64,000 bases of DNA from a virus: the IMG/VR virus record IMGVR_UViG_3300038441_001119, positions 148,353 to 212,352 of that record. One strand, given 5' to 3'. The translations under genes and the position numbers were made by a program. The notes under the pieces are model-generated. The model searched no databases, had not been told where the DNA came from, and saw only the letters and a program-made list of their open reading frames with translations. Within the stretch, counting starts at the first letter, position 1, and every line of letters begins with the position of its first letter. Of the stretch, positions 2,617-57,803 are shown piece by piece.

Positions 2617-3105
2617 TTATTTAGTTAGGAACGGATCGTCAGTCAGTACGTTCCTGTCGTCGCTATCCGGGGCGTGACCGATTCGTGGGATCGACTTGTC
2701 ATCAGAGTCAATGGACTTGGACAAGTGAGCTTGGAATGCGGTAAGGAGAGGACGAATAATGACCGTTTGCAGTAGCTGATCGAAACCTTCATGCGCATAC
2801 CCGATCATGCCGGGGTCCAGCGCATTGGGCATAGCGTTTTCACCGAAGATGCGAGCGATTTCACCTTCCTTGGAGACAAGCCGGATGTCACTGATTAGCA
2901 CAACGTCGGAGAGTTTCCTCTGCGCGAGTTTTGCTACGATGACATCCGTTGCGTCTCCGTAACCGGAAGCGGAAATGATTTTCTCAAACGTGGCTTGATT
3001 GGCTGCCAAAAGCAGTGCAGCTTTAGCCAAAAGCTCCGGTACATCCGCCTCAGTCGGTGTTTGGTTTGTACCTGTCTTTTCGTTCTTGTCTTTCGATACG
3101 CTCAT
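2617..3105 (-). CDS. Hypothetical protein, 162 aa
   Basis: Family not recognised. A polar N-terminus of about 20 residues precedes an Ala/Leu-rich helical stretch (LLAKAALLLAANQATFEKII) and a domain with short strands. The last 30 residues are acidic and Asp/Ser-rich. It overlaps the upstream 72-aa gene by 56 bases and ends just before a strong terminator. It belongs to the short leftward unit that starts back-to-back with the terminase gene. Confidence 0.7.
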   Translation of the reverse strand: MSVSKDKNEKTGTNQTPTEADVPELLAKAALLLAANQATFEKIISASGYGDATDVIVAKLAQRKLSDVVLISDIRLVSKEGEIARIFGENAMPNALDPGMIGYAHEGFDQLLQTVIIRPLLTAFQAHLSKSIDSDDKSIPRIGHAPDSDDRNVLTDDPFLTK

Positions 3106-3268
3106 CTTCAGTTCGATCCTGCTCTATTTCCTCCTTGACTGCAAGATCTTTATCGGCTTTTATTTTATCTGTACACGCTTTAATAGCAGCCTCGTACGCA
3201 GAATTGCGTGGGCGACGGGTGTTCCAGTTGTTCCGATTGAGGAACAAAGCAGCAGTACGAGCAATCAT
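3050..3268 (-). CDS. Hypothetical protein, 72 aa, charged helix
   Basis: A small, highly charged protein: residues 25-65 form one likely helix rich in Lys, Glu, Asp and Arg. Its ATG (3266-3268) directly abuts the ATG of the divergent terminase gene (3269-3271), giving CATATG with no intergenic base. No Shine-Dalgarno sequence precedes it at normal spacing. The alternative is that this frame is an antisense shadow and the leftward unit begins at 3105. Confidence 0.5.
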   Translation of the reverse strand: MIARTAALFLNRNNWNTRRPRNSAYEAAIKACTDKIKADKDLAVKEEIEQDRTEDERIERQERKDRYKPNTD

Positions 3269-5149
3269 ATGTATAAGTCTAACAAAGACCTTTATTCGCG
3301 AATTAGTAACGATACTAACTTCCGACTCAATATTAACAAACTATTTGGGAGATTTCAAATAGAAGCAGCGGAAGCAGCAAAAGGTCGTCCCGGCGCTGAG
3401 GAGAAGCGGGACAAGACGATGATGGAACTATTCCAGTATTGTGGTTGGAACGTTGGCATTTTCTTTCCCCTGTTCTTCCCCAAGATGATTGAAGGGGGTC
3501 CTCTGAATGTGATGCGTCGTCCGTTCGGATTCATGATGACCGAGCTGAACGTCTCTGGTTACACCTGTATCAGGGGTAGTCGTCAGATCGCAAAGTCCAC
3601 CAATCTTGTTGGCAGGCAGCTTGTTAAGGGATTCCTGTTTCCTCGGTTCAAGTCGATGTACATCTGTCCTCACAACAACCACAAGAAAACCTATCAGAAC
3701 AGGTTTGCTGAAATGGAGGCGGCATGTCCGTTCATGGACTTCGTGTACAAGAACCCTCGTCTCCGCACCAACCTTTCGTACAAGCAGTATCCTCTGGAAG
3801 GTGAAGTAAACATTGTGAACTGTCTGACCGACTCTTCGCAGGCGCGTTCGAAAACCACTGATGAGCTTCTGTACGACGAGTACCAGCTCTTTGACTGGAC
3901 TCTTGAAGGTGATATTCGTCCCTGCCAATCGGTCTCTAAGATTCCGATGACTGTGTATGCAGGAACCTCCACCACTGTCGACTCCCCTCTGGAGTTCCGG
4001 TACCAAGAGGGAAGCCAACATACGTGGAAGGTCAGAAGTCCGAACGGTAAGGATTGGATTGATTTCGGTGACGAGGAGTTGATGATCAAATGCATACGTC
4101 CTCGCGGTTTGGTGTGTCCTTACACTGAACGTCCCCTGAATGTCGCACAAGGCGAGTACACTCCTACTTACAAGGATAGACATGAATATGGTTACACCAG
4201 TATCCATGTTCCTCAGCTTATTATCAAAGACAAGGTGGAGCACCGTATCGACTGGGCTAAGATCTACGAAGCTTTTGAGGAGTTCGATAGACCGAAGTTC
4301 ATGGAAGAGTTCCTTGGTATCCCCTCGGAACTGGGTGCTCGGGAAATTACTGAGGCAGACCTTAAGGCGATCTGCACTCTTGGGAGCAAAGACGAGGTCT
4401 TTGAAAGGGTCAAACGCGGTGACTACAGTATTATTGTCTCTGGCTTTGACTGGGGTGGTTCTGACCACATTCCACACATCAAAGCTTCCCGCGTTAGTTT
4501 CACTGCCAATGCTGTTCTTGGTCTATCTGCTGATGGATACGTTGATATCCTTCATATGAGGCAGCACCATGGTATGAACTATGACTTCATTACCGGGCAG
4601 ATTGCTGAGGACTACAGGAAGTACCAGTGTAACGCACTAGCTTGTGACGCTGCTGGTGGTCAAGTCTACCTCAACAATCTTGATAAGCTTCTGAATCATA
4701 AGACTAACTTCCGGTTCGGTTACCACGCGCATGTCTTCCAACTGATGGGAGTTCCTTCGCATGGAGCGCCGAACCATTACACGTTGAACAAGCACGAGTC
4801 TATCGCCCAGCTGTTCCAAGCCATCAAGCACAAGAAGATTCGCTGCTACAAGTGGGAGGAGTCCGGGCCGCGTCTTAGCGAGATCCTGAATGTACAACGT
4901 GTTCTTATCGAACCGCAGTCGGGACCTCCGAAGTATCACTATCACATGACACCTCGGAATCCCGACGATACGGTTCATGCTTTGAACTACTCATATATTC
5001 TGATGCGCTTGCTTGCTGGTGAAAACGTTGTTCACGACGAACGCTTGATGCGTACTATTCAACAGGCTGTGCGGGGCGAGAATACTTTCTCCCCATTCCA
5101 GACATTCGGTGGTGTACCGAATCTGTTCGGGGAAATCGTTTCCGGTTAA
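3269..5149 (+). CDS. terL: Terminase large subunit (DNA-packaging ATPase/nuclease)
   Basis: This is the motor that pumps genome DNA into the prohead and cuts the concatemer. I start it at the ATG at 3269 (626 aa); the frame is open upstream but without a plausible start. The ATPase half shows a Walker A-like RGSRQIAKST (102-111, Ala replacing the usual Gly before Lys), Walker B LLYDEYQ with D203/E204, and a coupling-type motif GTSTT near 232-236. The RNase H-like nuclease half shows its acidic residues in FDWGG (D394), ACDAAGG (D460) and PDDTVHAL (D566/D567). It is one of only two plus-strand genes. Its TAA overlaps the stop of the convergent gene in the four bases TTAA, and the RBS is not visible. 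No small terminase subunit was recognised beside it. Confidence 0.95.
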   Translation: MYKSNKDLYSRISNDTNFRLNINKLFGRFQIEAAEAAKGRPGAEEKRDKTMMELFQYCGWNVGIFFPLFFPKMIEGGPLNVMRRPFGFMMTELNVSGYTCIRGSRQIAKSTNLVGRQLVKGFLFPRFKSMYICPHNNHKKTYQNRFAEMEAACPFMDFVYKNPRLRTNLSYKQYPLEGEVNIVNCLTDSSQARSKTTDELLYDEYQLFDWTLEGDIRPCQSVSKIPMTVYAGTSTTVDSPLEFRYQEGSQHTWKVRSPNGKDWIDFGDEELMIKCIRPRGLVCPYTERPLNVAQGEYTPTYKDRHEYGYTSIHVPQLIIKDKVEHRIDWAKIYEAFEEFDRPKFMEEFLGIPSELGAREITEADLKAICTLGSKDEVFERVKRGDYSIIVSGFDWGGSDHIPHIKASRVSFTANAVLGLSADGYVDILHMRQHHGMNYDFITGQIAEDYRKYQCNALACDAAGGQVYLNNLDKLLNHKTNFRFGYHAHVFQLMGVPSHGAPNHYTLNKHESIAQLFQAIKHKKIRCYKWEESGPRLSEILNVQRVLIEPQSGPPKYHYHMTPRNPDDTVHALNYSYILMRLLAGENVVHDERLMRTIQQAVRGENTFSPFQTFGGVPNLFGEIVSG

Positions 5150-5946
5150 ACCCAGACAAATTCCTCGGTCACCTCATCGCGGGTCTCAGCGAACTTGTGT
5201 TCGAGGTACTTGGGTGCGAGTTCGTTCCACTTAGCTTCGGCTAACAGTTTCACCTCCGTACTGTCGGGGTTATGTAGGGCGTACTTTGCCATATTGACCG
5301 CGTGTACGGTTACACCTTGCATCACACGGGGGAATATGTGCAAGTTTTTGGTGAATACGTCTACGTGCCTCGTGGTCTCGCTTCCATAGTTGAATAAGTT
5401 CAACGTACCGATCACCACCTTCTCCGGTGACACTTCATACATCGAATGGACATCGAGCTGAGAGTGCCCAAATAGAGCCGACCTTGTTTGTAGCGATTTA
5501 CCAATCAATACTTCTCCACTAACGAACTGCACTTCTGCTCCAGAAGAAACGTGACCCCTCACGTTGACGCTTTCTCTGAACTCTATCTTGGTACCAGAAG
5601 GACGAGCGTGGATACTATCGAGGGATTCCACGCTTGATCGGAACACAAGATCCCCGTCCGATTCGATACGACCATGCGCGTGAACACTTTCTAGGAAAAT
5701 TGTCGTTCCAGTTCTCCGACGAGTAAAGTCCATGTTCTTGAACATTACTACCGTACCAACTCCCACAGTCAATCCTTCATAAGTATGGCCTGCTGGTAGA
5801 TGTACGATACCAAGTCCGGATTCTAGGACAAGTCTCGACTCTCTTGAAAGAGTGAGCAGCGTTGACTGTAGAGCTGGAAGAAGGATCTTCTCTTTGGAGA
5901 ACCTATGCGCAGTCGTCAGGTCTTCTTTAGATATATGAAAGTCCAT
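5146..5946 (-). CDS. Beta-solenoid-like paralogue 4 of 4, C-terminal EEFVWV
   Basis: Last gene of a tandem quartet. The 266-aa product is beta-rich throughout, with alternating short hydrophobic strands and Gly turns typical of solenoids (for example around 75-190), and no catalytic motif. It shares with its neighbours the segment GLG, about ten residues, then GLTVGVGT (residues 44-64), and the final peptide TEEFVWV. The start ATG overlaps the upstream stop by one base (TAATG). Its stop overlaps the terminase stop. Function is unknown; a fibre, virion surface or bactofilin-like scaffold protein is possible. Confidence 0.85.
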   Translation of the reverse strand: MDFHISKEDLTTAHRFSKEKILLPALQSTLLTLSRESRLVLESGLGIVHLPAGHTYEGLTVGVGTVVMFKNMDFTRRRTGTTIFLESVHAHGRIESDGDLVFRSSVESLDSIHARPSGTKIEFRESVNVRGHVSSGAEVQFVSGEVLIGKSLQTRSALFGHSQLDVHSMYEVSPEKVVIGTLNLFNYGSETTRHVDVFTKNLHIFPRVMQGVTVHAVNMAKYALHNPDSTEVKLLAEAKWNELAPKYLEHKFAETRDEVTEEFVWV

Positions 5947-6746
5947 TATATGAATACGTACTCTTCTTCGAGGACAGAGGTTGGCAGCTGAGGTCCATTG
6001 ATGATGACTTTGGACTCCAGCTGTTTGGCGTAGGTCGGATGTCCCTTGAACAGGAACTCGTCACACCTGACAGGGTACTGCACATCGTTGGAATCGACGT
6101 TGTGGTGCCACAGTCCTTCCACGGTAACTGTGGGTAACGTTTTTTGTGCTGGGATGTCGGCGGGCCAGAGCTGGATCATACCTGTAGTCTCCAGTTTGGG
6201 GCATTTGACATTGCACTGTGCCATATGTATCTTGACAACCTTCACGGGACTATCGAAGACGATATTGGCGAACTTCTCAGAATCGTTCTCAGCCATCGTG
6301 ACAGGAACGACAATGATATAGTCGGCCTCGGCAGGACCCTTGATGTGAATGAACATGTCACTCAATGCTACACCAGATGGACGTAACGACAGATTCAGTA
6401 CAAGATCAGCTCCGGATGACCCTTTGTAGCTACCAGCAACAACAAGTTTATGCTTAACGATAATCTGCCGATTGTGCTCAAGGTTACCTCCTAAGTTTCC
6501 TGTAGTTAAAGTAAATTGGCAGGAATTAATCCTGATATTCGTTCCGCTACCTACTTCGAGATGCCCTACGACACAGGTGGAACTAATATCGTATGCACCG
6601 AGGTCAGGAGCGATGGCAACATTGGGTAGACGGGATGGTTGTCCTTGCCTGCCTTGCTCTCGTCCCCATGCTGTAATAGCTGCGCTAAGGTTCGTAGTAC
6701 GGGAGGTGATATTGATGTCGATTGTTGGTATTTCAGGTGGTTTCAT
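5946..6746 (-). CDS. Beta-solenoid-like paralogue 3 of 4, C-terminal EEEYVFI
   Basis: A 266-aa relative of the other three genes here. The shared core reads DLG, a spacer, then VVGHLEVGSGTNIRIN, followed by further strand-and-turn repeats (LVVAGSYKGSSGADLVLN). It ends EEEYVFI, matching paralogue 1 more than paralogues 2 and 4. It has no signal peptide and no transmembrane segment. It sits four bases downstream of the previous gene and overlaps the next by one base, so the quartet is one translational unit. Confidence 0.85.
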   Translation of the reverse strand: MKPPEIPTIDINITSRTTNLSAAITAWGREQGRQGQPSRLPNVAIAPDLGAYDISSTCVVGHLEVGSGTNIRINSCQFTLTTGNLGGNLEHNRQIIVKHKLVVAGSYKGSSGADLVLNLSLRPSGVALSDMFIHIKGPAEADYIIVVPVTMAENDSEKFANIVFDSPVKVVKIHMAQCNVKCPKLETTGMIQLWPADIPAQKTLPTVTVEGLWHHNVDSNDVQYPVRCDEFLFKGHPTYAKQLESKVIINGPQLPTSVLEEEYVFI

Positions 6747-6749
6747 AAT

Positions 6750-7508
6750 TTAGATCCACACGAATTCTTCTGTGATGGGTTCTGTAATGATGGCGACCTT
6801 TTTGAAGGCTATATTGGTGAACTTAAGTGACCCATGGTTAACCTTAGGTCCAAGTTCCTCCGTGCGCACCGCTACTGACAGGGTGGAATTGGTTGGCGGT
6901 ACGTTGAACTCCGTACAATCTACAACAATATGCTCGGTTGAGCGTCTACTGTTGGTAGCCGCAATACTCAACGCTGTAAGGGTACCATCTACACTCAGAT
7001 GAGAGTACATACCGCGAGCCACTACCATGTGGCTGAGGGTGACATCTCCTTCTACAGTCAGGCTACCTGTTATTAGCAGCTTGTTGGTACCTGATACTTC
7101 TTTGCTGATAGGACCGCATATGGTACCTGACGACTTGGTCATACAATACAAAGTACCGAAAGCGTGGTTGGCGAACGAGGCATTACCTGCTGGTCGACTT
7201 ATCCCATTTTCAAACAGGAACTTTCCGTACAAGTCCATGGAGTACTGGTACCCCATTTTCCCCTGTACATGCACAGTACCATGTATGGAAATTCCAGATT
7301 CGAAATACAGTTCCGTACCTGCGCCGATCCGAAGGTGACGTACCACTGCCCAGAAAGCGATATAGACCACACCTAGTCCTCCGGGAACATCCCAGTCAAT
7401 CGTGCGTCCCCGGTTGTTCATCGTGGACATACTGACCACTCTGTGAGTCATGCGAGGACGAAGCTCACAGTGATCCCACCCGTTTTGTGTTATGGTTGGA
7501 AATTTCAT
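6750..7508 (-). CDS. Beta-solenoid-like paralogue 2 of 4, C-terminal TEEFVWI
   Basis: The frame is open upstream to 7640, but the ATG at 7508 (MKFPTITQNGWDHCE) overlaps the upstream TGA as ATGA and is the natural start, giving 252 aa. The core contains GLG, a spacer, then RHLRIGAGTELYF, and later GSLTVEGDVTLSHMVV and SVDGTLTALSI, repeats like those of bactofilin or polymer-forming beta-helix proteins. It ends PITEEFVWI. Function is unknown. Confidence 0.85.
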   Translation of the reverse strand: MKFPTITQNGWDHCELRPRMTHRVVSMSTMNNRGRTIDWDVPGGLGVVYIAFWAVVRHLRIGAGTELYFESGISIHGTVHVQGKMGYQYSMDLYGKFLFENGISRPAGNASFANHAFGTLYCMTKSSGTICGPISKEVSGTNKLLITGSLTVEGDVTLSHMVVARGMYSHLSVDGTLTALSIAATNSRRSTEHIVVDCTEFNVPPTNSTLSVAVRTEELGPKVNHGSLKFTNIAFKKVAIITEPITEEFVWI

Positions 7509-8269
7509 ACAAATACGTACTCCTCTTCTATTGGACTGGTGACTGGTGCATATCCTTGCTTTGGTACATGCATAGGTTTTTCGCGAACATGGACGCTCTT
7601 GAAGTGTTCCTTGGTAGTACCATCTCCGAGACGGTCGCATATTACGTGGGTAGGCAAGGGACCACCGGCTCTGTCAGAGGACCATCCTGCCTCAAACGTA
7701 CCGGCGTCAATATATGGAGGTGTGTTTCCGACAGGGAAGTCATAATGTTGTACCCAGTCGGCTAAGCTAAATGTACCACTGACAGTTACCTCCGAGCTTC
7801 CAGCAGAACCATCAGTATATTTTCCAGTGCAGGTGAGGTCTCCTTTGACGATAAGCTGGGTTTGCTGCCCGTCCATTCTGATGGAGGTTGTTTCGCAGTT
7901 TCCGTCTACTGTAACAACGTCTTTTACAATGATGCGAACACCATACGACGATTTGACGATAAGATCGCCTTTGACATGGCACGTTTCGTAGAACCCTAGG
8001 TCACCCTTAAGGACAGTGAGGTCGCCTCCGAAAACCGAATCGCGGTAACAGAACGTAATCCCGTCCTGCATGGTTAGGTTAGTTCCATCGCCTACAATCG
8101 CGGTTCCGATAACAAGCGATCCATCATGGTAAATATCTCCCAAGTCTGGATCAATATGCAAGTCCATGTCACCTTTGCTGATGACTCTGTTGCTGTGTAC
8201 CGGGAATGGCCAGACGATCTGACCGTCATGTGAAATGTTGTCTTTTGTGATTACTATTTTTTCTCTCAT
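7505..8269 (-). CDS. Beta-solenoid-like paralogue 1 of 4, C-terminal EEEYVFV
   Basis: First gene of the quartet and the clearest solenoid. Residues 55-160 repeat short units such as GGDLTVLKGDLGFY, HVKGDLIVKSSYG and LIVKGDLTCTG. The shared DLG...VIGTAIVGDGTN segment lies near 45-62, and the protein ends PIEEEYVFV. The repeats resemble bactofilin-type right-handed beta-helices by eye. Start: ATG at 8269, just after the terminator at 8285-8314, without a Shine-Dalgarno sequence. Confidence 0.85.
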   Translation of the reverse strand: MREKIVITKDNISHDGQIVWPFPVHSNRVISKGDMDLHIDPDLGDIYHDGSLVIGTAIVGDGTNLTMQDGITFCYRDSVFGGDLTVLKGDLGFYETCHVKGDLIVKSSYGVRIIVKDVVTVDGNCETTSIRMDGQQTQLIVKGDLTCTGKYTDGSAGSSEVTVSGTFSLADWVQHYDFPVGNTPPYIDAGTFEAGWSSDRAGGPLPTHVICDRLGDGTTKEHFKSVHVREKPMHVPKQGYAPVTSPIEEEYVFV

Positions 8270-8281
8270 TTTGGTTACACG

Positions 8282-8314
8282 AAAAAGCCCCGGAAGATTG
8301 CTCCTCCGGGGCTT
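8282..8314 (-). terminator. Rho-independent terminator
   Basis: On the minus strand a perfect ten-base stem AAGCCCCGGA/TCCGGGGCTT closes a ten-base loop and runs into TTTTTCG. It separates the enzyme genes above (ending at 8348) from the beta-solenoid quartet starting at 8269. Confidence 0.85.
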
Positions 8315-8347: not shown

Positions 8348-8500
8348 TTATTGGCAGGATTCGCATGTACCATCAAGGTTGCATGCTGGTACGCCTAGTT
8401 CTGGCCAATCTTCATCTTCAACTTGGGACGGACCTTTCTGACCGATAAGTTCGTCTTCCTGTTCCTTACTCAACCGTTGCGTTTCGTTCTCCTTGCTCAT
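8348..8500 (-). CDS. Small acidic Cys-containing protein, 50 aa
   Basis: A short frame that fills the gap before the terminator. It starts at the ATG at 8500, overlapping the end of the AAA+ gene by 35 bases, and ends in TAA at 8348-8350, 34 bases before the terminator stem. It begins MSKENETQRLSKEQEDELIG and ends with a three-cysteine tail, CNLDGTCESCQ, that could bind metal. The acidic composition and its place in the operon support it; no family was recognised. Confidence 0.55.
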   Translation of the reverse strand: MSKENETQRLSKEQEDELIGQKGPSQVEDEDWPELGVPACNLDGTCESCQ

Positions 8501-9851
8501 CTTCTTTTACAGAATCTTTAAGGTGGTGCTGCCAGTACCACTTGAAAGCCGCCTGAATACATTCGTTCTCCCAATTGGCGGCAGGCTGATCCTTCGAACT
8601 TTCGACCATAGCATCAATCTCGGCTTGAGGCAAACCATTCATGATACGATTGGCGAGGGAGGTGCGTCCTTCCTTGCTCAAATAGGGAACTTCCACCTTA
8701 CGATCCACGCGTCCCGGTCTGAGCAGCGCCGGGTCCAGTTTCTCGATGTGATTGGTTGTCATGATGACCATACCCAACAGTGGGTCGACACCTGACAGCA
8801 TGTTCAGCAGCGTTTCGAACGACAGCTTGGGACCATCGTGTTTCACTTGGTTTTCACGTCCAACAAAGATGGCATCAATGTCTTCCAGAAGGATGATCTT
8901 CGGTTCCCCCGCAGTCACCTTCTTATATAGTTTCTCCACGTCCGCATCACAGAAGGTAGCCAAGTGAACCTTCAGGATCGGAATACCGTACTCTTCGGCG
9001 AGCACGCGTACAAGGGCGCTCTTACCGGTACCGGGGGCACCATAGAGCATCAAACCACGTTTGCAGGGGATACCTCGTTCACGCATCCATGTCTTTGCTT
9101 TGATGAAGGTTTCAAATTCATCACGAAGGACCTGCATGCTTGGGTCCAGATAGTACCGGGAGAATGGCTTGATCTTCTTGGAAGTACCGAACTCATCAAC
9201 CACACGGTTATACATTGGGTATACGTCCACAGCCCGTTTACCGGCTCCACGAACAATTCTGAGAACCGAGTCCATGGAACCTGCTCCGGGAGAGTCGTGG
9301 GCCATTTTAGCTCCGCCTCCACCATGGGGAGCTGGGTCGGCATTACCGAACATACTGTCCACCGCATTCTTGTTGTTGGTAGTGATGGAGCCGTAGACGT
9401 TCTCCACGTAGAAGTTATCAGACCTTAGGGAGGCCAGACTCTCATTCTCGTGCCCATACCAGCTTTGTCCTGCCTTTTCGATCAGCTTTTTGCCATTCAC
9501 CCAGCCACGTATGTAAGTGAGCGTACCTTGACTCTCACTTTCCACAGTCCAGATTACCAGCTTGCCTTTCAACCAGAAGATAGCAGGCTTTGTATCCACT
9601 TCGATCATGACCGGGGCTAGGTCATTGATCTCTCGGTGTCGTTCAAAGACGCCTACAAATTGAGTGGGACCAAACTTGATATGCTTCCACTCTTTCCATA
9701 GTTGGCAGTGTAAGTGAGAAGCAGGTCTCCCTGTGATCTTCACCCTTACCACCAGAATTGTACTAAGGCGCAACAAGAAGGACTTGATCTGCCCATACAG
9801 CATGATGATAGGAGCCAGCCATGCCAGTCCTGCGATATTGCTTAAATTCAT
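8466..9851 (-). CDS. BCS1-like AAA+ ATPase with N-terminal membrane segment
   Basis: A 461-aa AAA+ protein. A hydrophobic N-terminus (about residues 5-36) could anchor it in a membrane, and residues 40-220 form a family-specific region. The ATPase follows: Walker A GAPGTGKS (271-278), Walker B KIILLEDID (318-326), sensor-1 TTNH (366-369) and arginines in LRPGRVDRK (377-385). The order resembles BCS1-type AAA proteins, which act on folded proteins at membranes. In phage, its substrate is unknown. It overlaps the metallohydrolase gene by four bases, so they are coupled. Some other AAA+ chaperone class is the alternative. Confidence 0.85.
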   Translation of the reverse strand: MNLSNIAGLAWLAPIIMLYGQIKSFLLRLSTILVVRVKITGRPASHLHCQLWKEWKHIKFGPTQFVGVFERHREINDLAPVMIEVDTKPAIFWLKGKLVIWTVESESQGTLTYIRGWVNGKKLIEKAGQSWYGHENESLASLRSDNFYVENVYGSITTNNKNAVDSMFGNADPAPHGGGGAKMAHDSPGAGSMDSVLRIVRGAGKRAVDVYPMYNRVVDEFGTSKKIKPFSRYYLDPSMQVLRDEFETFIKAKTWMRERGIPCKRGLMLYGAPGTGKSALVRVLAEEYGIPILKVHLATFCDADVEKLYKKVTAGEPKIILLEDIDAIFVGRENQVKHDGPKLSFETLLNMLSGVDPLLGMVIMTTNHIEKLDPALLRPGRVDRKVEVPYLSKEGRTSLANRIMNGLPQAEIDAMVESSKDQPAANWENECIQAAFKWYWQHHLKDSVKEDEQGERNATVE

Positions 9852-10666
9852 ACGATAAGGTTAAGGGTCTTTGCGAAAAACTTGATGTCGACATCTGGGT
9901 CGATTCCTTCAAGCCCAGTTTCAAGGGACCATGGTTTGCCATAGTGCGTTAGGAACAGATCGGTCTTCAACTTCTTATTGCGCCAATGTTTGGTCAGCTC
10001 AGAGAAGTGACAGTGGTTACCTCCCACCACTTTACCGTGATTCTTGGCATCATGTATGACGATGTCAGATTGCTCACACAGGTCATGAGGCTCCATACAG
10101 TCGGACGTGAAAAGAACACGGTTACCGTTGTCACTGACGAACCAGAGACCATAGTTGGACTTGAACTGGTCATCGTACATGCTGCCCGCTTGCTGCTTGA
10201 AGAGAGGCATGTGCCGTGAGAACTGATACTGGAACCGAATACCTTGCCAGACGAATGACTTGTAGTTGGGCATAGCATCGCGATCAAAGTAATCGTCAAC
10301 AGTGATACCCCTTCCATCGTAGAACGCTTCCAGACCATGCATCAGTGCGGTGTCCAGTTCGTCCATAACGTCAGGGTGTCCGAACAACTTGGGACGTATC
10401 CTCTTTCCGTTCTCGTCAGTCTTGGGGATGTAGTACCTCGAATGGGCCAGCATCTCCAGACCTCCCATATGGTCACCGTGAATGTGGGAGATATAGACGG
10501 CATCAATATCCGTGAAGGGAATCTTGAACTCGTCCCTAAGGATGTAGGGAGTCGTGGTACCGCAGTCGAAAAGTAGTTTCTTGTTGTTGTGTTCAATAAG
10601 GAAGGAAGAGTTGCCTTCGTCCATAGTCGCGAAGGCTCCACCGTTTCCGAGGGAAGTGATTTTCAT
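9848..10666 (-). CDS. Metallo-beta-lactamase-fold hydrolase, RNase Z-like
   Basis: The 272-aa product has the MBL zinc-site motifs in order: HIHGDH (61-66), H152, D189 in FTSDC, a His pair near 218-220, and H241 in LTHYG. The N-terminal GNGGAFATMDEGNSS and the IDAVYISHIHGDHMGG layout are closest to RNase Z/phosphodiesterase-type members, which cut RNA or cyclic nucleotides. I use the ATG at 10666 because a hairpin lies between it and the upstream gene; a start at 10756 overlapping the macro gene is the alternative. The substrate cannot be read from sequence. Confidence 0.85.
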   Translation of the reverse strand: MKITSLGNGGAFATMDEGNSSFLIEHNNKKLLFDCGTTTPYILRDEFKIPFTDIDAVYISHIHGDHMGGLEMLAHSRYYIPKTDENGKRIRPKLFGHPDVMDELDTALMHGLEAFYDGRGITVDDYFDRDAMPNYKSFVWQGIRFQYQFSRHMPLFKQQAGSMYDDQFKSNYGLWFVSDNGNRVLFTSDCMEPHDLCEQSDIVIHDAKNHGKVVGGNHCHFSELTKHWRNKKLKTDLFLTHYGKPWSLETGLEGIDPDVDIKFFAKTLNLIV

Positions 10667-10699
10667 GTATTGGGTGCTAGTGGTAGGTAAAAAGAGGGA

Positions 10700-10749
10700 A
10701 CGACGAAATCCTAGCCCACTCGCCTCGTGAAAGGACAGGTGGGCTAGGA
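10700..10749 (-). terminator. Hairpin, possible terminator between macro and MBL genes
   Basis: A perfect 11-base inverted repeat TCCTAGCCCAC/GTGGGCTAGGA at 10709-10719 and 10739-10749. On the minus strand it is followed only by TTTCGTCG and a later CTTTTT, so termination may be weak. The GGGCTAGG stem recurs in the terminator after the major capsid gene (44369-44392). Confidence 0.55.
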
Positions 10750-10752
10750 CGG

Positions 10753-11268
10753 TCATTTAAAGCTCGGATGGCACGCTATCACACGTACATTCCGAGACTT
10801 AAGGCATTCCGCCAAAGTTTCTATGAAGCTGACCATATGATCAAAGTCCGGTGGTGGGCCTAGAGGGTTAGCTAAGCCCTCTTTCCCTGCGCCTACACCC
10901 GGAATGGGTAAGGCAACCGTGTATTCGTTTTTAGCCAGCTCCCAAGGTGGTAGATGTTTCTGCACCAGCCGTGTCGCGTCGATAATGGCGGTTTCACACC
11001 ATTCAGCACACGTCTGCACTGAGTACAGATCCTTAACTATGAGGTCGCCTATTGCGAGGTTATCGAGGGTAAATACAGCAGGATAAATATAGGCGTTCCC
11101 CGCTTCCGGGTACTCTTTCGCTTCTATCTTCCTACGGTATAACTGGAAGTACAACGGGAACCGCTGCTTGAACTCCAGCGCCAATCCTTTACCCATAGCA
11201 CCAGCCCTGTTGGTGGTATTGAATATCAGATTGGCTCCACAATTGAAGAGGTCAGGAGCTTTTTCCAT
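10753..11268 (-). CDS. Macro-domain (ADP-ribose-binding) protein
   Basis: A stand-alone 171-aa macro domain. The diagnostic segment NLIFNTTNRAGAMGKGLALEFK (13-34) matches the ADP-ribose-binding loops of macro domains, with Asn/Gly positions typical of hydrolytically active members such as DarG or TARG1 types. PIPGVGAGKEGLA (near 122-134) is the phosphate loop. Macro domains remove or bind ADP-ribose. In a phage this could undo ADP-ribosylation of DNA or protein by host defence, or process ADP-ribose phosphates; that is inference. It overlaps the neighbouring small gene by 17 bases. Confidence 0.88.
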   Translation of the reverse strand: MEKAPDLFNCGANLIFNTTNRAGAMGKGLALEFKQRFPLYFQLYRRKIEAKEYPEAGNAYIYPAVFTLDNLAIGDLIVKDLYSVQTCAEWCETAIIDATRLVQKHLPPWELAKNEYTVALPIPGVGAGKEGLANPLGPPPDFDHMVSFIETLAECLKSRNVRVIACHPSFK

Positions 11269-13241: not shown

Positions 13242-14010
13242 TTCCTACATTGGCATATTCACTATGCCCTGTAGCTGCTTTACGACGCATTTCGTTGAAG
13301 TCGACAATAGCCCGTGCGGCGATAACAGCTTCAGGGATGAATCTGACAATCTTACGATCAGTCGAATTGCTGTCCATGAGGACGTAATCCGCTTTATTCG
13401 TAAGGGTCAGACGGCTAGCTTCGGGGAGGTTCTCCCAGTTGAAGATGATGCGTTGGGTTACGATTTCGAGTGCTCGCTCGTAACGACGATCATACTCGTC
13501 ATGGAAGTGCAGAAGATATGTCAGCAGGTGATAAAAATAAACAGCCTCCTTACCGCCGCAAGCGGTCAGGAATCCAATTGTGGAGAAATCGAGATCACAG
13601 GCACCTTCCCGGATAGTTTCGAGCTTTTCCTGGTCGGGGTATGTGCTCTCGTCGTAACAGATGACAGCTTCAAATACTGCCAGTTCTTCTGCGATTCGCT
13701 CTTCCTCAGACTCTGGCTCATCACGTAATTCCAGCGGTTCACCATCCAGAATCACAGAAGAGCCACCTGTTGCCACAGCGCCATGGACACTTGGAATCCA
13801 ATCATCAGCGCGGACACGTCCAGCTGGAGACTTGGGTTCTTCATGCGATACCGTGATGACAGGTTTTGTTTTGTTAACAAGAGAAACCACCGGCAGCGGA
13901 GCCACCGGTGGTTTACCTGAAACTTGTTCCTGTGACAGCTTTGCAGCTGCAACAGAAGAGGGAGAGGGAGAAGGAATAAATAACGCTTTTTTAGGTAATT
14001 GTTCGGACAT
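13231..14010 (-). CDS. Hypothetical protein, 259 aa
   Basis: Family not recognised. The first 85 residues are Pro/Ser/Val-rich and probably disordered. A helical domain follows (about 95-250) with an acidic entry (EPESEEERIAEELAVFEAVI) and aromatic helices (AVYFYHLLTYLLHFHDEYDRR). It overlaps both neighbours by 11 and 20 bases. No membrane segment or catalytic motif was seen. Confidence 0.75.
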   Translation of the reverse strand: MSEQLPKKALFIPSPSPSSVAAAKLSQEQVSGKPPVAPLPVVSLVNKTKPVITVSHEEPKSPAGRVRADDWIPSVHGAVATGGSSVILDGEPLELRDEPESEEERIAEELAVFEAVICYDESTYPDQEKLETIREGACDLDFSTIGFLTACGGKEAVYFYHLLTYLLHFHDEYDRRYERALEIVTQRIIFNWENLPEASRLTLTNKADYVLMDSNSTDRKIVRFIPEAVIAARAIVDFNEMRRKAATGHSEYANVGNDV

Positions 14011-14932
14011 AGTGTGGCGACTGGTGTTGCAGACAACTGAGGGCGGCCTCGACTGTATCGAAGGTCGCCTGAGTTTTTGATTTGGACAAATGCCTCATAG
14101 ACTTGTGGTGTTTAAGATGAAAACCCTTAATCTGAAGCACGTACTGATCACGCCTGCTTTCCAGTAGAGAAGGTGAAATGACTGCTGACAGCGGCCTGTT
14201 CACCTGCTTTTCCGCCCACATAATGGACGAAATATTTATCACATCCGAAATAAGTATGCTGCCTCCGTGATCGTCTGTCTCGTAGGAAGTATACTTGGAG
14301 TTGCTAATCAGATTACCACGGATGGTTCGTATTGCTACTGACCAGATAGTGGCTCGGAGCGACGTATCGAGGAAGTCTTTGGCTTTCTCGAACGGCACAC
14401 CTACATCGGACATTGAGGCTATCACAGCCGATAGACTACAGTTCCGCCCTATTGGGTATTTACCGTAGTCCCACATGTCGATGGGAATGATGAATTTTTC
14501 ATTCACTTGTTCCGCAATGGATGTCAGGACCTGCCGATCATTAGCACAATCGAGCAAGTCTCGCTCCACACGTTCGTCGGTGAAGTCGAAGGGGATATCT
14601 TTGTTTCTCAGTTGGGTTTTTATTACACGGGAGACAACGGTGTCTCCCATAAAGTCCCACACAAGACCCGCTGAGGCCATGAGTGGACTATCTTCCGAAT
14701 TGTGCATCTTCGAGAACCCTTTTTGGTGGTGATCGAATCTGCGCAAGTTTCTGTTGTACTCTTGACCACAGTCGACCACGTAATCCGCAATACGAATTTG
14801 GTCAAGGTAGTCTGTATCCCTGTAGATTCTGGCACCGGGGTTTTCGATGAGGATGATCGCCACGGCTGTGAGATCATCTGCATGGTACGACCCTGAATGT
14901 GTCACAATCAGTGGACCGAGTTCAGTAGACAT
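13991..14932 (-). CDS. MYG1-family (UPF0160, DHH-like) metal-dependent nuclease
   Basis: A 313-aa protein with the MYG1 family layout: THSGSYHADD (11-20), then IYRDTDYLDQIRIADYVVDCGQEY with the last Asp of the metal site, then RFDHHQKGF (65-73). MYG1 homologues in eukaryotes are 3'-5' RNA exonucleases, and the family resembles DHH phosphoesterases. The length and motif order agree with a full-length enzyme. ATG at 14932 is chosen over a GTG at 14965 because homologous sequence starts there. A role in RNA turnover or repair during infection is inference. Confidence 0.85.
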   Translation of the reverse strand: MSTELGPLIVTHSGSYHADDLTAVAIILIENPGARIYRDTDYLDQIRIADYVVDCGQEYNRNLRRFDHHQKGFSKMHNSEDSPLMASAGLVWDFMGDTVVSRVIKTQLRNKDIPFDFTDERVERDLLDCANDRQVLTSIAEQVNEKFIIPIDMWDYGKYPIGRNCSLSAVIASMSDVGVPFEKAKDFLDTSLRATIWSVAIRTIRGNLISNSKYTSYETDDHGGSILISDVINISSIMWAEKQVNRPLSAVISPSLLESRRDQYVLQIKGFHLKHHKSMRHLSKSKTQATFDTVEAALSCLQHQSPHYVRTIT

Positions 14933-14992
14933 GTTATGGCTGGTTGTACACGGATGGTTAGACACCGTGTTGGTTTATGTCAGAACCTCACT

Positions 14993-15023
14993 AAAAAATG
15001 AAGACTGACTGCCTAATGTCAGT
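14993..15023 (-). terminator. Weak terminator after gene 15073-15663
   Basis: The minus-strand stem ACTGAC/GTCAGT with an eight-base loop is followed five bases later by TTTTTT. The rest of this 140-base gap (14933-15072) holds an AT-rich TGCTATATACATG patch that might serve as a -10 for the MYG1 gene, but no convincing -35. Confidence 0.45.
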
Positions 15024-15072
15024 GACATAGGCGTTCACATGTATATAGCACTAGGGGGTCCCTTTTTGCCCC

Positions 15073-15663
15073 TTAAGCAAGCAACTGTTCTGCCTGTGCA
15101 ATGAACTCATCTGGTACGCCGACAGCCTTCAACTCAGCGAACAGTTCGGCTTTGATTCTAGCCTCGTCATCGTTGAGTTCAGGGTCTTCCAGAGTGTCAA
15201 TGGACTCCTTGTTCAGGATGTCCTTAATGAATTCCTCCATGGTAGGAGTGAATTCGGTTTCAGCATCATGGTTAAGCTGGACTTCCATGATGCCAAGAAG
15301 CATTTCGGGCACTGTAGGCTCGTCGAAAGCTCCGTTTACAATGTCTCCAAGGTCTCCGGAGGCGATTGCTATACAAATAGACGAGAACGCCATTGGATTC
15401 TCGAAAAATACCTCCGTAGCGGTCGCAAGGAGGATAGCGTTGAGCTTGTTTTCGACTTCCAGAGGGATTTTGACCGAAAAGTCCTCCTCTAGGTTCGCAA
15501 AAAGCTCCAACGGGTCCATTGGCTCATCGTCGTTAAGAGGATCGCCGTAAATAGCCTCTATTCCGTACTGTTTGAGTACGATAGCATGTAAAGTGGAGGC
15601 GAAGGACTCGGTGTTACCCAGTACTTCCCTCGCCGCGTCCTTATTAAGCTCCCAGTTATTCAT
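15073..15663 (-). CDS. Hypothetical acidic protein, 196 aa
   Basis: Family not recognised. The product is strongly acidic (DDEPMDPLELFANLEEDF near 45-62) and largely helical, without membrane segments. It overlaps the 360-aa gene by eight bases and is probably its partner. It ends before a short hairpin. Confidence 0.75.
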   Translation of the reverse strand: MNNWELNKDAAREVLGNTESFASTLHAIVLKQYGIEAIYGDPLNDDEPMDPLELFANLEEDFSVKIPLEVENKLNAILLATATEVFFENPMAFSSICIAIASGDLGDIVNGAFDEPTVPEMLLGIMEVQLNHDAETEFTPTMEEFIKDILNKESIDTLEDPELNDDEARIKAELFAELKAVGVPDEFIAQAEQLLA

Positions 15664-27829: not shown

Positions 27830-29352
27830 TATGTTAATCTGACGTGAGTAAACGAAAGCATGGTACTGCATTCCCCTGCTTGCTTGTCGACTTTAACAGT
27901 GTGCACCACTCTGTCAAGGAAACCTTTGAAAGTAGTAGCTTCTGTGTCCTCACGCTCGATCTTGATCTCGTACTGATACCCAGCCTTCCAAGAAAAGTCC
28001 AAAAGGGTCTTGGCGACCATAGAGTACGGCGAGTACTGCGCGTCAGCCAGTACGTTCTCGGAATATTCCTCAAGGATCTTGTGGAAGTTATCCGTATAGG
28101 TTCTGGTGACCTTGCTGACGATCTCGCTTTTCTTGGCTTTGTACTGGCTGATATCCACCACGTTCTCACTGGTATCCTCTTCTCCCGTGATCACATGAAT
28201 CAGGCTGCTGAAAGGAATCCATTGGGGAAGAGGAATGTTGACCATGTTGCCTGCGTCGACTCCATTGGTAACAGCGAAATACGTAGGATAATTGATGAGA
28301 GGAAGAATGGTAGCCTCTGCCTTGTTATCAAGATCGCTCACCTCTGGAGTCACAGGAGCACCGGAGATGACCACACCGGTCGTTACATCCAGTTTCATCT
28401 CCGAGCAGGACATACCAACATAGGATGGAGACAGAGTGGCTTGTTCCGACTCTGCTTCATCCGATGCCATTTGCTTGAATGGACGCATGAACCCAGCTGT
28501 TGACCCATCGTCGTTCCTATTGGAAACAGAAGGAGGAACATAGAACATCTGCGAACCATTGGCAAACGTCATAATATTCGAGAAGAAGTCATCTTTCGAA
28601 CCAGACACGAACTCCCCGATGTAGGCGTTGATACGTCGATTGAAGGCTGTGGCGATAGCTTGTTCACCCAGAGCACCTGAAAGGGATTCATAGGTGTCTT
28701 CAGTGGAGTCATCACACAGAGCTTCAAGTAACGCAAAGTGGTTCTTGTTCCTAGTGTGCACTGTAGCGATCTGTGACAACGTAGAGCCGTCGATCCACTG
28801 GTTGGTACGCTCACTATCAAAATTATCCATCCGTGCCTTCACGACAGCCTTGAGGCGTTCCATGAAGTTACCAGTGGAAGGAATGTCAGCATTGTCTGCT
28901 TGAACCTGCTCTTGATAAGGATCATCGAGGTCCGCATTGGGAACACCCGGAACGACTGCATAGATGTAAGGCTGAAAGGTATTCAGAGTTGCACAGGGGT
29001 GCAGCAACCTAATTGAGTTGGCATAGTAAGAAGTACTGCACTGTATCTCCGGACCGAGAGGATATCCTTGGAAAACAGCAGTCTGTGCGTCGTCACCTTC
29101 CAAATTGATTGTAACAGTGATCTTGTTTCCCTGCTGTCCGCTTACACGTGTCTGCTGTAGCAGACCATAGGCATCCATGGTCTTCTGATCCATAGGAGGC
29201 TTCACTGAAATATCCTCAGCCTCGTGCAAGCTGATAGTTGCCGTGGGAATCTGATTAATCTGCTCCGTAATAGTAACCGAGTCAACTGAATTACCCAGTC
29301 CGCCCAGACCCTCTACAGTTACCTTCGGAAAAATGACTTTCGTCTTACTCAT
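27829..29352 (-). CDS. Baseplate hub protein, gpD/gp27-like
   Basis: The 507-aa product opens with beta strands (FPKVTVEGLGGLGNSVDSVT, then ITEQINQIPTATISLHEAED) as in late-control D/gp27 hub proteins. It continues with a strand-rich repeat around QTAVFQGYPLGPEIQCSTSY (about 90-112) and a C-terminal domain that includes YQYEIKIERED and KGFLDRVVHTV. Hubs form the trimeric base on which the spike and tube sit. It is in tail-operon order after the tape measure and two small genes. Alternative: another baseplate core protein. Confidence 0.7.
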   Translation of the reverse strand: MSKTKVIFPKVTVEGLGGLGNSVDSVTITEQINQIPTATISLHEAEDISVKPPMDQKTMDAYGLLQQTRVSGQQGNKITVTINLEGDDAQTAVFQGYPLGPEIQCSTSYYANSIRLLHPCATLNTFQPYIYAVVPGVPNADLDDPYQEQVQADNADIPSTGNFMERLKAVVKARMDNFDSERTNQWIDGSTLSQIATVHTRNKNHFALLEALCDDSTEDTYESLSGALGEQAIATAFNRRINAYIGEFVSGSKDDFFSNIMTFANGSQMFYVPPSVSNRNDDGSTAGFMRPFKQMASDEAESEQATLSPSYVGMSCSEMKLDVTTGVVISGAPVTPEVSDLDNKAEATILPLINYPTYFAVTNGVDAGNMVNIPLPQWIPFSSLIHVITGEEDTSENVVDISQYKAKKSEIVSKVTRTYTDNFHKILEEYSENVLADAQYSPYSMVAKTLLDFSWKAGYQYEIKIEREDTEATTFKGFLDRVVHTVKVDKQAGECSTMLSFTHVRLT

Positions 29353-30080
29353 TTACGCAGTTTTATATCAGAAAGAACAATAGCACAAGCAACGACTGCC
29401 ACTTTGTAGAATGGATCAGGGGAAGCATGGAAAGAGTCCAGAAGCCCATGGGAGTTGATCAAGGACATCGTGGGAGCATGCGACAGCAGACGGTCCGCTA
29501 CAGCCTTGTATGGGTATCTAGATGGGTGTATATTCAGCCGTATGATCGTACCTTCTTCCCACATGGTAGGAATGATACCGAAGTTGCAACCTGCCAGCAC
29601 ATCTTGGAAACCCTTACCGAAGAACATAGCCCTGTCATCGAACCATTGGATAGGGACGATCTTACTGGTAAACGAGGTTGATATGGCGGCTGCGTTGTCT
29701 GCTACATACTGGAAAGTCACCTGAATGCTATCCGGTAGATCCTGCGGTTTCCAGCAGAGGGAAAGCTTGTCGTTTGTAGTCGTAAAGACCCCGCCTTCCA
29801 GTGTTGCGCTGTTCATCTTCACCATGGAAGGGTAGAACCAATCCACACCTTGGTCTGGGATCATATTTACTAGCTCAGGGTATGAGTATAGTGCTTGGAG
29901 GGGTCCAACAGTGTAAAAATCGCTGTCTTTACTATTTAGTCGAAGAGCTTCCCGGGTTTTAACCAAGGCGTCATCCCTTGTACGGTACGAGGGAAGGTTT
30001 ACGCTATTGTTCCATGGCGCAAAGGAAAAGCCTCCACGCTCTGGAGACAGATGGTGAACAATGGCGTTATTAATTTTCAT
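29349..30080 (-). CDS. Probable baseplate or tail-tube-initiation protein, 243 aa
   Basis: Family not recognised. The mixed alpha/beta sequence shows strands around IQVTFQYVADNAAAISTSF and SKIVPIQWFDD (about 118-150). In myovirus operons this slot, between the tape measure and hub, often holds gp48/gp54-like or LysM-type baseplate proteins, so a tail-tube-initiator role is plausible. Overlaps of four bases (hub) and one base (upstream) show coupling. Confidence 0.65.
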   Translation of the reverse strand: MKINNAIVHHLSPERGGFSFAPWNNSVNLPSYRTRDDALVKTREALRLNSKDSDFYTVGPLQALYSYPELVNMIPDQGVDWFYPSMVKMNSATLEGGVFTTTNDKLSLCWKPQDLPDSIQVTFQYVADNAAAISTSFTSKIVPIQWFDDRAMFFGKGFQDVLAGCNFGIIPTMWEEGTIIRLNIHPSRYPYKAVADRLLSHAPTMSLINSHGLLDSFHASPDPFYKVAVVACAIVLSDIKLRK

Positions 30081-30553: not shown

Positions 30554-30554
30554 A

Positions 30555-44427: not shown

Positions 44428-45420
44428 TTAGACTTCGAAGGCAACTTTGTTGACGCCTGCGACGTTCGCGATGGTCAGACCGATGATCTCTTCAGCAGAG
44501 ATGCGGAGAAGGTCCTTCTTACGCTCAACGTACATGGTGACGTCTTTCAGCGAGTACGCCTTACCGAGGAAGTCTGGCTCAACGAACTGGTAGACTTCGC
44601 CGTCAGCGATCAGATCGCGCTTCATCGTCGCGATGTGAGGGATGCCGAAGAATTTCAGTTCTGGGAGAGCCGAGAGACCTTCAAGGAAGAGGTCTTGCGA
44701 CTTGGTACCACCGACTTCGTCGTGATCGAAACCGAGGAATTCCTTAACCGTCTTGCGGTTGACAAGGAAGACGCCGTTGTTCAGTTCACGGTCTTCGAGG
44801 TGGGACAGAGTGTACTTGCGATAGTTGTCACGAGTGATGGTGACGCCGTTCGTTCCAACAGGCTCGTCCGCACCGCCATCGGTGTAGTCGAAGTTTTGTT
44901 GATAGCCAGCCGCGCCGTTTGCACCGCCCGGAGCACCCACGATGGTGTCAACCCAACCGATGAAGCGATTATCTTCATGGGTTTGGATGTCCTTGAGGGA
45001 GTTATCAACAATAACCTTTTGGAGGTCGATCTTCTTGTAAACCTTCAGCTCGTGAATGTTTTTGGTCCATTCAGGAGTTGCGATTTTGAAGAAGGTCGTG
45101 ACGAAACCTTGGCCACGGAAGTAGTGCGTCCGGTGAGTATCATTCAGCGGAAGCGAGACAGCGCCGGGTTGGTCAGGCTCCATTTCGTCGACAACGTAGA
45201 GGTTGTCTTCGAAGTCTGGGTGACGTCCGAGGTCGTTCGGTCCAACTGGTTTCATCGGGAGAATCCGGCGCATGAAACCGTTTTCACGGAGACGGCGACG
45301 AATTGCGCTACCAGCTGCATCAGATGCCGACTTGTTGAATCCTTCTGGAGCGTCCATGAGGGCGTCAAGAAGGTCCTTGTTGAAGGCTTCAGGATCTTGA
45401 ATAACAATTTTAGGGTCCAT
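44428..45420 (-). CDS. Major capsid protein (HK97 fold)
   Basis: A 330-aa protein in the capsid slot, downstream of protease, scaffold and decoration-like genes. Residues 1-45 (DLLDALMDAPEGFNKSASDA and a basic helix AIRRRLRENGFMRRILP) look like a removable N-terminal arm. Residues 85-330 carry an HK97-like E-loop and core (FKIATPEWTKNIHELKVYKK, FLVNRKTVKEFLGFDHDEVG, and a beta-rich end). A prohead protease cut is possible after DAPE or at NKSAS. Its own terminator follows. Confidence 0.85.
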   Translation of the reverse strand: MDPKIVIQDPEAFNKDLLDALMDAPEGFNKSASDAAGSAIRRRLRENGFMRRILPMKPVGPNDLGRHPDFEDNLYVVDEMEPDQPGAVSLPLNDTHRTHYFRGQGFVTTFFKIATPEWTKNIHELKVYKKIDLQKVIVDNSLKDIQTHEDNRFIGWVDTIVGAPGGANGAAGYQQNFDYTDGGADEPVGTNGVTITRDNYRKYTLSHLEDRELNNGVFLVNRKTVKEFLGFDHDEVGGTKSQDLFLEGLSALPELKFFGIPHIATMKRDLIADGEVYQFVEPDFLGKAYSLKDVTMYVERKKDLLRISAEEIIGLTIANVAGVNKVAFEV

Positions 45421-47691: not shown

Positions 47692-49143
47692 TTAACTGTT
47701 ACGATAAAAGTTCATCGCAACAAAGGTCTTAGCCAAAAGATCTTGGTCTTCAAACCCACGCTTAACCATGTCTTCAAAAGCAGCTACCTGATATGCAGCG
47801 TACGATTGTTCGAAGATGTCCAGAGAACGTGTCTTGTCATACTCAGCAAAGCCAGTATTAGCAGAACCGCTCTTGATTATGATAGTGATGGTCTTTTGTT
47901 GAGTAGGCTCCATCTTGCAGGAGAACTTCTGTGCCATCTCTTCCATGATACCATCGACTTCATCGCTGTCTTCTGGATCACAATCGGAAGCCTTCTTACC
48001 AAAGCCACTGAACAGAGGAGTCAATTCATCAAGCGTAGCATCGCACTGCTCGTCTTTGAGCATAGAGTTGTGGATGTTGGCCAGCTTGACAACTTCACCA
48101 TCGTAACCAGCATACTCGAACAACTCTTTCGCGGGAAGTAGTGCTGCGGTTTCAGCAAGCTTACCGAAGAGTGTACCGGGACGGAGGCTGGCAACTTTCT
48201 TGAAGTCACCATTGAGAGTGTTGTCTTGGCATGCAGTCTTCAACACGGAGAAGAAGTAGTGCCACTCAGGGTCGTTGCGCTTCTGTTTGAGATTATCAGC
48301 AAACCAAGTCTCTGCAGCAGCAAGCTTAACAAGGGTGTCCTTGAAATCAGAAATGGTACGAGTACGCACTCCCTCAAGTTCCGCAGCTAGATAGCCGGGA
48401 ATGATGATAGAACTGGTATCAGCAGAGGCCGCCTTCTTCATTTCCTCGTCCTCGGAGAACTTGTAAGCAATATAGTGCGCAATACGATCAGCAGGGCGTC
48501 CTACACGACTGATATCGAAGAACCGTGGCTCGTCGTTGATCGCAAAGGCGTACTTCTTGAAGGTAGGGATGTATTGTCCCATGTGTTTCTTCAAGTGGTC
48601 ACAATATGCAGCAGCACTCTTAGCCATGTTGCCGCAGCAGGAGCAACGGTCATGCTTGAGACGGGCGGACATACTGTAGGCAAGTTCTTTGCCTTGTTTA
48701 GCAAGTTCGTACTCTTCAGCAGCCTTCTTCTTGTGACCGTGCACCAGAAGTTCAACACGATCCAGCGGCTTGTTATAGGCAGACTTTACAATCGTACCAA
48801 TAGCAAGAGACGGATCTTCGTGGCGATGTTCCCGATAGAAGTGGCCGTGTTTAACAAAGGTGTCGTGGTACTTCTCCAGAGACGCACTGGGGAATGCGTC
48901 TTGGTTACGGTTAGGAGGGTACGTAGGCCACCCACCCAGCGCAATAACGTGCTGCATGAAGTGGTCTTTGTCAGGCTTATGCGCCTCGTAGTCCTCCTCA
49001 GTGAAGATGCTGTGGTAATCCGCAGAGGCGCTCTTCATCATACCCTTATTCTCAATGAGGGTATTGAAATGACCGCCAATCGCAGCAAGAAGGGATTCCT
49101 GCGCGTCCTGATAGATTACCTTAGTGAGTCCGTAATGATCCAT
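47692..49143 (-). CDS. Prohead protease (serine protease) with extended C-terminus
   Basis: Residues 40-165 match the herpes-assemblin/gp21-like prohead protease layout: NRNQDAF (78-84), HGHFYREHRHED (99-110) with the candidate catalytic His, GTIVKSAYN and RVELLVHG strands, and KELAYSMSARL (152-162) with the candidate Ser. A zinc-like CSCCGN and a long helical C-terminal part (about 170-483) follow. The protease cuts scaffold and capsid arms during head maturation. Being 483 aa, it may be a protease-core fusion, with many KSA/KKA motifs as possible self-cleavage sites. Confidence 0.85.
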   Translation of the reverse strand: MDHYGLTKVIYQDAQESLLAAIGGHFNTLIENKGMMKSASADYHSIFTEEDYEAHKPDKDHFMQHVIALGGWPTYPPNRNQDAFPSASLEKYHDTFVKHGHFYREHRHEDPSLAIGTIVKSAYNKPLDRVELLVHGHKKKAAEEYELAKQGKELAYSMSARLKHDRCSCCGNMAKSAAAYCDHLKKHMGQYIPTFKKYAFAINDEPRFFDISRVGRPADRIAHYIAYKFSEDEEMKKAASADTSSIIIPGYLAAELEGVRTRTISDFKDTLVKLAAAETWFADNLKQKRNDPEWHYFFSVLKTACQDNTLNGDFKKVASLRPGTLFGKLAETAALLPAKELFEYAGYDGEVVKLANIHNSMLKDEQCDATLDELTPLFSGFGKKASDCDPEDSDEVDGIMEEMAQKFSCKMEPTQQKTITIIIKSGSANTGFAEYDKTRSLDIFEQSYAAYQVAAFEDMVKRGFEDQDLLAKTFVAMNFYRNS

Positions 49144-57800: not shown

Positions 57801-57803
57801 ATA

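Follow-up and report, generated by a model that had tools for sequence, protein, structure and literature searches.

The window analysed here (64,000 nucleotides) is the last 64 kb of the 212,352-bp IMG/VR record IMGVR_UViG_3300038441_001119, labelled G000, which is the genome of a large tailed phage encoding a terminase, a major capsid protein and a head maturation protease. The subject is a C-terminal peptide of 12 residues, hereafter the tag, which is carried by four tandem genes for solenoid-like proteins adjacent to the terminase gene and by other proteins of the same phage. Coordinates above 64,000 are those of G000, and the window position equals the G000 position minus 148,352. The genes of the quartet and the respective codons of their tags (last 12 residues) are as follows.

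7505..8269, minus strand: solenoid gene 1, 254 amino acids, ending with APVTSPIEEEYVFV (PIEEEYVFV), its stop codon overlapping the start of gene 2 (ATGA)
6750..7508, minus strand: solenoid gene 2, 252 amino acids from the coupled ATG at 7508, ending with TEPITEEFVWI, not coupled to gene 3
5946..6746, minus strand: solenoid gene 3, 266 amino acids, ending with TSVLEEEYVFI, its stop codon overlapping the start of gene 4 (TAATG)
5146..5946, minus strand: solenoid gene 4, 266 amino acids, ending with RDEVTEEFVWV, its stop codon overlapping that of the convergent terminase gene at 5146-5149
7508..7543, minus strand: tag codons of gene 1
6753..6788, minus strand: tag codons of gene 2
5949..5984, minus strand: tag codons of gene 3
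5149..5184, minus strand: tag codons of gene 4, an uncoupled copy

The arrangement given in the original prediction, namely four tandem minus-strand genes for proteins of 252-266 amino acids with a shared C-terminal peptide, was confirmed by the ends of the open reading frames (ORFs), and the alternation of the endings between genes 1 and 3 on the one hand and genes 2 and 4 on the other is real. The diverged common core described for the four proteins was also recovered. Among eight phage proteomes, the motif LG-x(n)-[GR/E]-x-[LA]-x-[VI]-G-x-G-T matched no proteins but these four, and five of the six pairs of solenoid bodies without the last 12 residues were found to be related, with Smith-Waterman z values from 3.6 to 4.6 and with 0-1 of 300 shuffles reaching the score. 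The sixth pair gave a z value of 1.1, and the unrelated control pairs gave values from -1.7 to 1.8.

Structure prediction was done for the products of genes 1 and 4 by AlphaFold2 with an alignment depth of four sequences only. The models were weak, with a mean predicted local distance difference test score (pLDDT) of 49.5 and 47.7, respectively, and a predicted template modelling score (pTM) of 0.47-0.52, but at this low confidence both contained a regular ladder of short beta strands at about residues 35-172, and the last 60-80 residues including the tag were predicted to be unstructured and outside the solenoid core. No significant match to the models was obtained with Foldseek (E value of 0.25 or worse), nearly all the matches being beta-helices. 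Bactofilin-like repeats had been noted for gene 1 (7505-8269); the regular short strands and a weak profile match of genes 1 and 2 to bactofilin (PF04519) would agree with this, but the match lies below the Pfam cut-off (best 14.9 bits versus 27.9; E values of 0.07-0.14), and the resemblance is only suggestive. The likeness to bactofilins and other beta-helix proteins is confined to the regular short-strand solenoid pattern, the tail being no feature of bactofilins. Close relatives of the solenoids were found neither in INPHARED, nor in the IMG/VR peptide scan, nor in ten related contigs.

Distribution of the tag in G000 and in a related phage

The last 12 residues of the tagged proteins in G000 read roughly [TV]-T-[ES]-P-[IV]-[TE]-E-E-[YFWM]-V-[FW]-[VI]-COOH. 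The tag was found at four loci, on 11-12 proteins whose sequences fall into seven or more distinct families, with 10 ORFs obtained directly by clustering, 11 when the gene at 124145-124564 hidden by an overlapping ORF is added, and 12 with the weak copy at 75450-76220. The tagged genes outside the quartet are as follows (G000 numbering).

76220-76855: tagged gene, ending with EPVTEEYIFI
75450-76220: neighbour with a weak tag, ending with EEDVTDWEFV
123726-126533: run of five tagged genes, ending with SVIDEDWVFV, EPITEEYIFV, EPVTEEYVFV, EPITEEYVFV and EPIDEEMTFI
141541-143640: tagged gene for a protein of 699 amino acids, ending with SEFEEEMVFI

When all C-terminal 8-mers of G000 were clustered, 34 links were recorded; random internal 8-mers gave 1.9-2.0 links on average and never more than 5. 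The sharing of the C-terminus noted for the quartet is thus far beyond chance, but it turned out to be phage-wide rather than a property of the four solenoids. The copies of the tag differ by synonymous codons, and comparison of the copies showed the tag to be constrained at the protein level. The motif never occurred inside any called protein. After the tag had been trimmed, no homology was detectable among the bodies in G000 except between two small proteins (124145/124561) and, marginally, among the solenoids, by which an origin of the tail from whole-protein homology of ordinary tandem paralogues was rejected, the bodies being homologous only within the named families. Searches of the tagged proteins against Pfam, PHROGs and NCBIfam gave no significant family, and the tag as an exact DNA pattern had no match in IMG/VR outside G000. 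No comparable C-terminal cluster was present in six other phages: Arash, D69, G005 and G006 had none, and G002 and G004 had paralogue arrays only. These are small tandem arrays (G002 57355-60049 and G004 137405-140224, respectively) with similar C-termini and visibly similar whole bodies, one of which adjoins the major capsid gene.

A related phage, G001 (IMGVR_UViG_3300046779_002349, 150,179 bp), has a terminase 50% identical to that of G000 and 63 reciprocal-best orthologues with it. Neither the solenoid genes nor the G000 tail was detectable there, and a second tag was found instead. By clustering, 32 of the 242 ORFs of G001 fell into one C-terminal cluster and two others have the same ending, which makes 34 (14% of the ORFs) with the consensus K-x-[VL]-N-[LH]-x-K-[VI]-x-I-T-[LI] (e.g. 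VNHTKVQLTI, VNLQKTTITL and LNLSKTTITL). These ORFs belong to up to 11 sequence families and lie in tandem gene cassettes, of which the one at 28959-30791 stands where G000 has its tagged 699-amino-acid gene, flanked by the same pair of conserved genes. For most columns between -1 and -12 the information content was above random in both phages, with a fall to background at -13. The isoelectric point of the tag is 4.1 in G000 versus mostly 8.5-12 in G001, and positions -1 and -3 are hydrophobic in both.

The tagged genes were shown by homologue comparison between the two phages to be exclusively lineage-specific. Cross-phage homologues were recorded for none of 12 tagged genes of G000 and none of 34 of G001; among the untagged genes, 66 of 283 in G000 and 68 of 208 in G001 had one (Fisher p = 0.07 for G000 and 6e-6 for G001). 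The largest tagged family of G001 has 13 members with YYENSxGYWxKxEYD repeats, and bodies homologous to it were found in Verrucomicrobia phage P8625 (54% identity), in another podovirus and in several bacterial contigs of metagenome-assembled genomes. All of these homologues with a readable C-terminus end without the tag; in one other, the reading frame continued past the end of the sequence at hand. By this comparison the tag was shown to be a modular add-on to the bodies. Alignments of the terminase, the major capsid protein and the RNA polymerase in IMG/VR gave only G001 as a further member of the lineage, and a portal search of GTDB genome contigs and plasmids gave none.

Possible functions of the tag

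The tail could be a by-product of translational coupling, with GAGGA (Glu-Glu) serving the following gene as its Shine-Dalgarno sequence and the overlapping ATGA or TAATG giving rise to the terminal Val or Ile; the peptide would then be under no selection as a protein. The next start is indeed overlapped by 6 of the 12 tags in G000 (stop/start overlaps GTATGA, ATATAATG) and by 28 of the 34 in G001, and all six coupled tags of G000 read Y-[VI]-F. Shine-Dalgarno sequences, however, are not used in either phage, being present upstream of 7% of the ATG starts, the same as in shuffled sequences; the corresponding values are 71% for Arash and 78% for D69. Furthermore, the tag stands on only 6 of the 71 coupled stops of G000, five scored tags are uncoupled, and a Shine-Dalgarno-like sequence is missing from the G001 tag. 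The uncoupled copies keep the pattern acidic-acidic-aromatic/Met-x-aromatic-Val/Ile with other residues (F-V-W, M-T-F, M-V-F, W-V-F and W-E-F). Since the stop codon of solenoid gene 4 overlaps that of the convergent terminase gene, no downstream gene needs this copy as a ribosome-binding site. An artefact of this kind was largely refuted, because the peptide does not track coupling and Shine-Dalgarno sequences are not used, and it is considered highly improbable. The uniform Y-[VI]-F of the coupled tags means that coupling shapes the variant and accounts for the alternation between genes 1 and 3 and genes 2 and 4, not for the tag itself. The lack of Shine-Dalgarno use suggests a host group with Shine-Dalgarno-independent initiation such as Bacteroidota.

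The reading preferred here, with a probability of about 0.6, is that the tag is a docking or sorting peptide read by one partner. This had been proposed for the quartet, and it is supported by a tail that is exactly terminal, constrained at the protein level and attached to unrelated bodies; a receptor, a destination and an effector role of the tagged proteins would be its further components. The original prediction had added that the solenoid bodies assemble into a hetero-oligomer or a mixed filament, with the conserved tail as the link, and a tandem array of four related bodies showing bactofilin-like repeats would agree with this. The same tail, however, is present on at least six non-solenoid families of G000 and so cannot be specific to solenoid assembly, and G001 without solenoids tags other cargo, so this addition was left unsupported and is very unlikely. 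The tail may alternatively be a degron, that is, a short C-terminal signal for the fast removal of accessory proteins by an AAA+ protease of the host or the phage, as would suit its shortness, its terminal position on small accessory proteins and the BCS1-like AAA+ ATPase gene adjoining the quartet. G001 has no counterpart of this AAA+ gene, yet it is tagged, and tags of opposite charge in two related phages are hard to explain for a host protease. Known hydrophobic C-terminal degrons are also shorter and less specific than the 12-residue pattern, and a degron is regarded as unlikely.

Under the docking reading, accessory proteins of unrelated folds (the four solenoids and 7-8 others in G000) would carry a 12-residue C-terminal address tag, and one phage-encoded receptor would capture it by beta-strand addition or by a groove reading the free C-terminus, whose residues at -1 and -3 are hydrophobic. 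Every protein equipped with the tail would then reach one common destination. This would most likely be the prohead, in which the accessory proteins would be packaged and from which they might be ejected into the next host. The prohead is favoured because the logic matches that of the T4 internal proteins and of the plastic protein sets in giant-phage heads, and the prohead protease and the major capsid protein are both encoded; this destination is proposed tentatively, with a chance clearly below one half. The tag might otherwise dock its bearers onto another structure made by the phage, such as the surface of the capsid (as decoration), a replication compartment resembling a nucleus, or a hub in the infected cell formed by a membrane or a scaffold. 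The evidence for a common receptor applies equally to these sites, repeat-rich bodies (the beta-solenoids and the YYENSxGYWxKxEYD repeats) would suit decoration, and the tagged cassettes are not confined to the neighbourhood of the terminase gene, some being located among replication genes. Nothing directly favours one of these sites, however, and no nucleus-shell protein turned up, although none was searched for; docking of this type is rather unlikely.

The different, basic tag of G001 implies that tag and receptor would co-diverge. It is possible, at slightly less than even odds, that the tags represent an undescribed sorting system, in which a lineage-specific C-terminal 'zip code' with a co-evolving receptor would load dozens of unrelated, interchangeable proteins into one destination. 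Related phages would have switched to codes of opposite charge, by which their cargo would become unshareable, and the cargo would probably serve in host takeover or anti-defence. Several points weigh against docking and prohead delivery. A receptor search by orthologue pairs with a charge flip between the two phages gave no convincing candidate, and the generality of the system rests on two genomes, only two phages of the lineage having been found. Some homology among the seemingly unrelated small bodies may be too remote for BLAST. A [VIL]-x-E site resembling that of T4 gp21 is present in most G000 tags and missing from the G001 consensus, so that cleavage there would not be common to both tags, and the solenoids and the 699-amino-acid protein exceed the size of typical ejected internal proteins.

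Several known systems were compared with the tags. The cargo-loading peptide of encapsulins is likewise short and C-terminal and docks unrelated cargo onto a shell of the HK97 fold. Encapsulins, however, belong to cells and take up few cargoes in each shell, whereas the tag here is viral and placed on many proteins; a description of encapsulins is given in PMC8346489. The capsid-targeting sequence of T4, of about 10 residues, suffices to send fusions into the prohead, and its cargo varies between relatives (PMC9026906). It resembles the tags as a short terminal peptide on unrelated and fast-varying accessory proteins (the internal proteins IPI, IPII and IPIII and the propeptides of Alt), but it is N-terminal and cut off by gp21 after [LI]xE, whereas all tags of G000 and G001 end at the stop codon. 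Here as many as 34 genes are tagged, and related phages have different tags. Jumbo-phage heads hold large variable sets of paralogues, one family of SPN3US having 20 members (PMC5694885). Families A and B of SPN3US and the inner body of phiKZ are defined by homologous bodies, whereas only the tail is common here. By analogy, the tags may act in the manner of the T4 capsid-targeting sequence or of the cargo-loading peptides. No description of a common C-terminal tail on unrelated phage proteins was found in a limited search of open-access papers, which is weak evidence that none exists.

As an address label, the tail would single out a class of uncharacterised proteins (12 and 34 in the two phages, respectively) acting in one place, and it could be used as a programmable handle by which proteins are brought into a structure of the phage. 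A screen for over-represented C-termini on unrelated proteins could expose such systems elsewhere, and the opposite charges of the tags in two related phages make tag-receptor co-evolution a testable question.

Genomic context

The other features of the window mentioned above are as follows.

2999..5149, plus strand: terminase large subunit (phrog_675), convergent neighbour of the quartet and the query by which G001 was found
8282..8313, minus strand: terminator-like element, a perfect 9-bp hairpin (AGCCCCGGA/TCCGGGGCT) followed by TTTTT, read in the sequence
44428..45420, minus strand: major capsid protein, conserved in G001, untagged
47692..49143, minus strand: probable prohead (head maturation) protease, conserved in G001

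Searches of cultured phages with the terminase and the portal matched only remote phages, the nearest being Salmonella phage Arash and Vibrio phages D69, D148 and D181 with about 20% identity in these two proteins. The AAA+ gene and solenoid gene 1 flank the hairpin at 8282..8313, which resembles an intrinsic terminator and sets the quartet apart from the upstream operon. Hairpins of this kind were observed shortly 5' of three tagged cassettes, namely at this position and upstream of 145637 and 148801 in G001; nothing obvious was found as a common promoter 5' of the tagged cassettes. In the place 3' of the terminase gene where G000 has the solenoids, G001 holds at 13939-15585 what we take from its sequence to be a TROVE/Ro60-type RNA-binding look-alike, together with two tRNA genes.

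The gene at G000 4721-8197, conserved in G001, presumably encodes the beta-prime subunit of RNA polymerase, as read from its sequence. It has two intein-like insertions with CLAEGT...HN/SN borders, both of which are missing from the G001 homologue. The island at window 8466-11268, which adjoins the quartet and has no counterpart in G001, contains the BCS1-like AAA+ ATPase gene, a gene whose metallo-beta-lactamase-fold product matches anti-Pycsar Apyc1 (PF23023) above the cut-off and one for a macro-domain-like protein (match below the cut-off), and these are regarded as candidate anti-defence genes.

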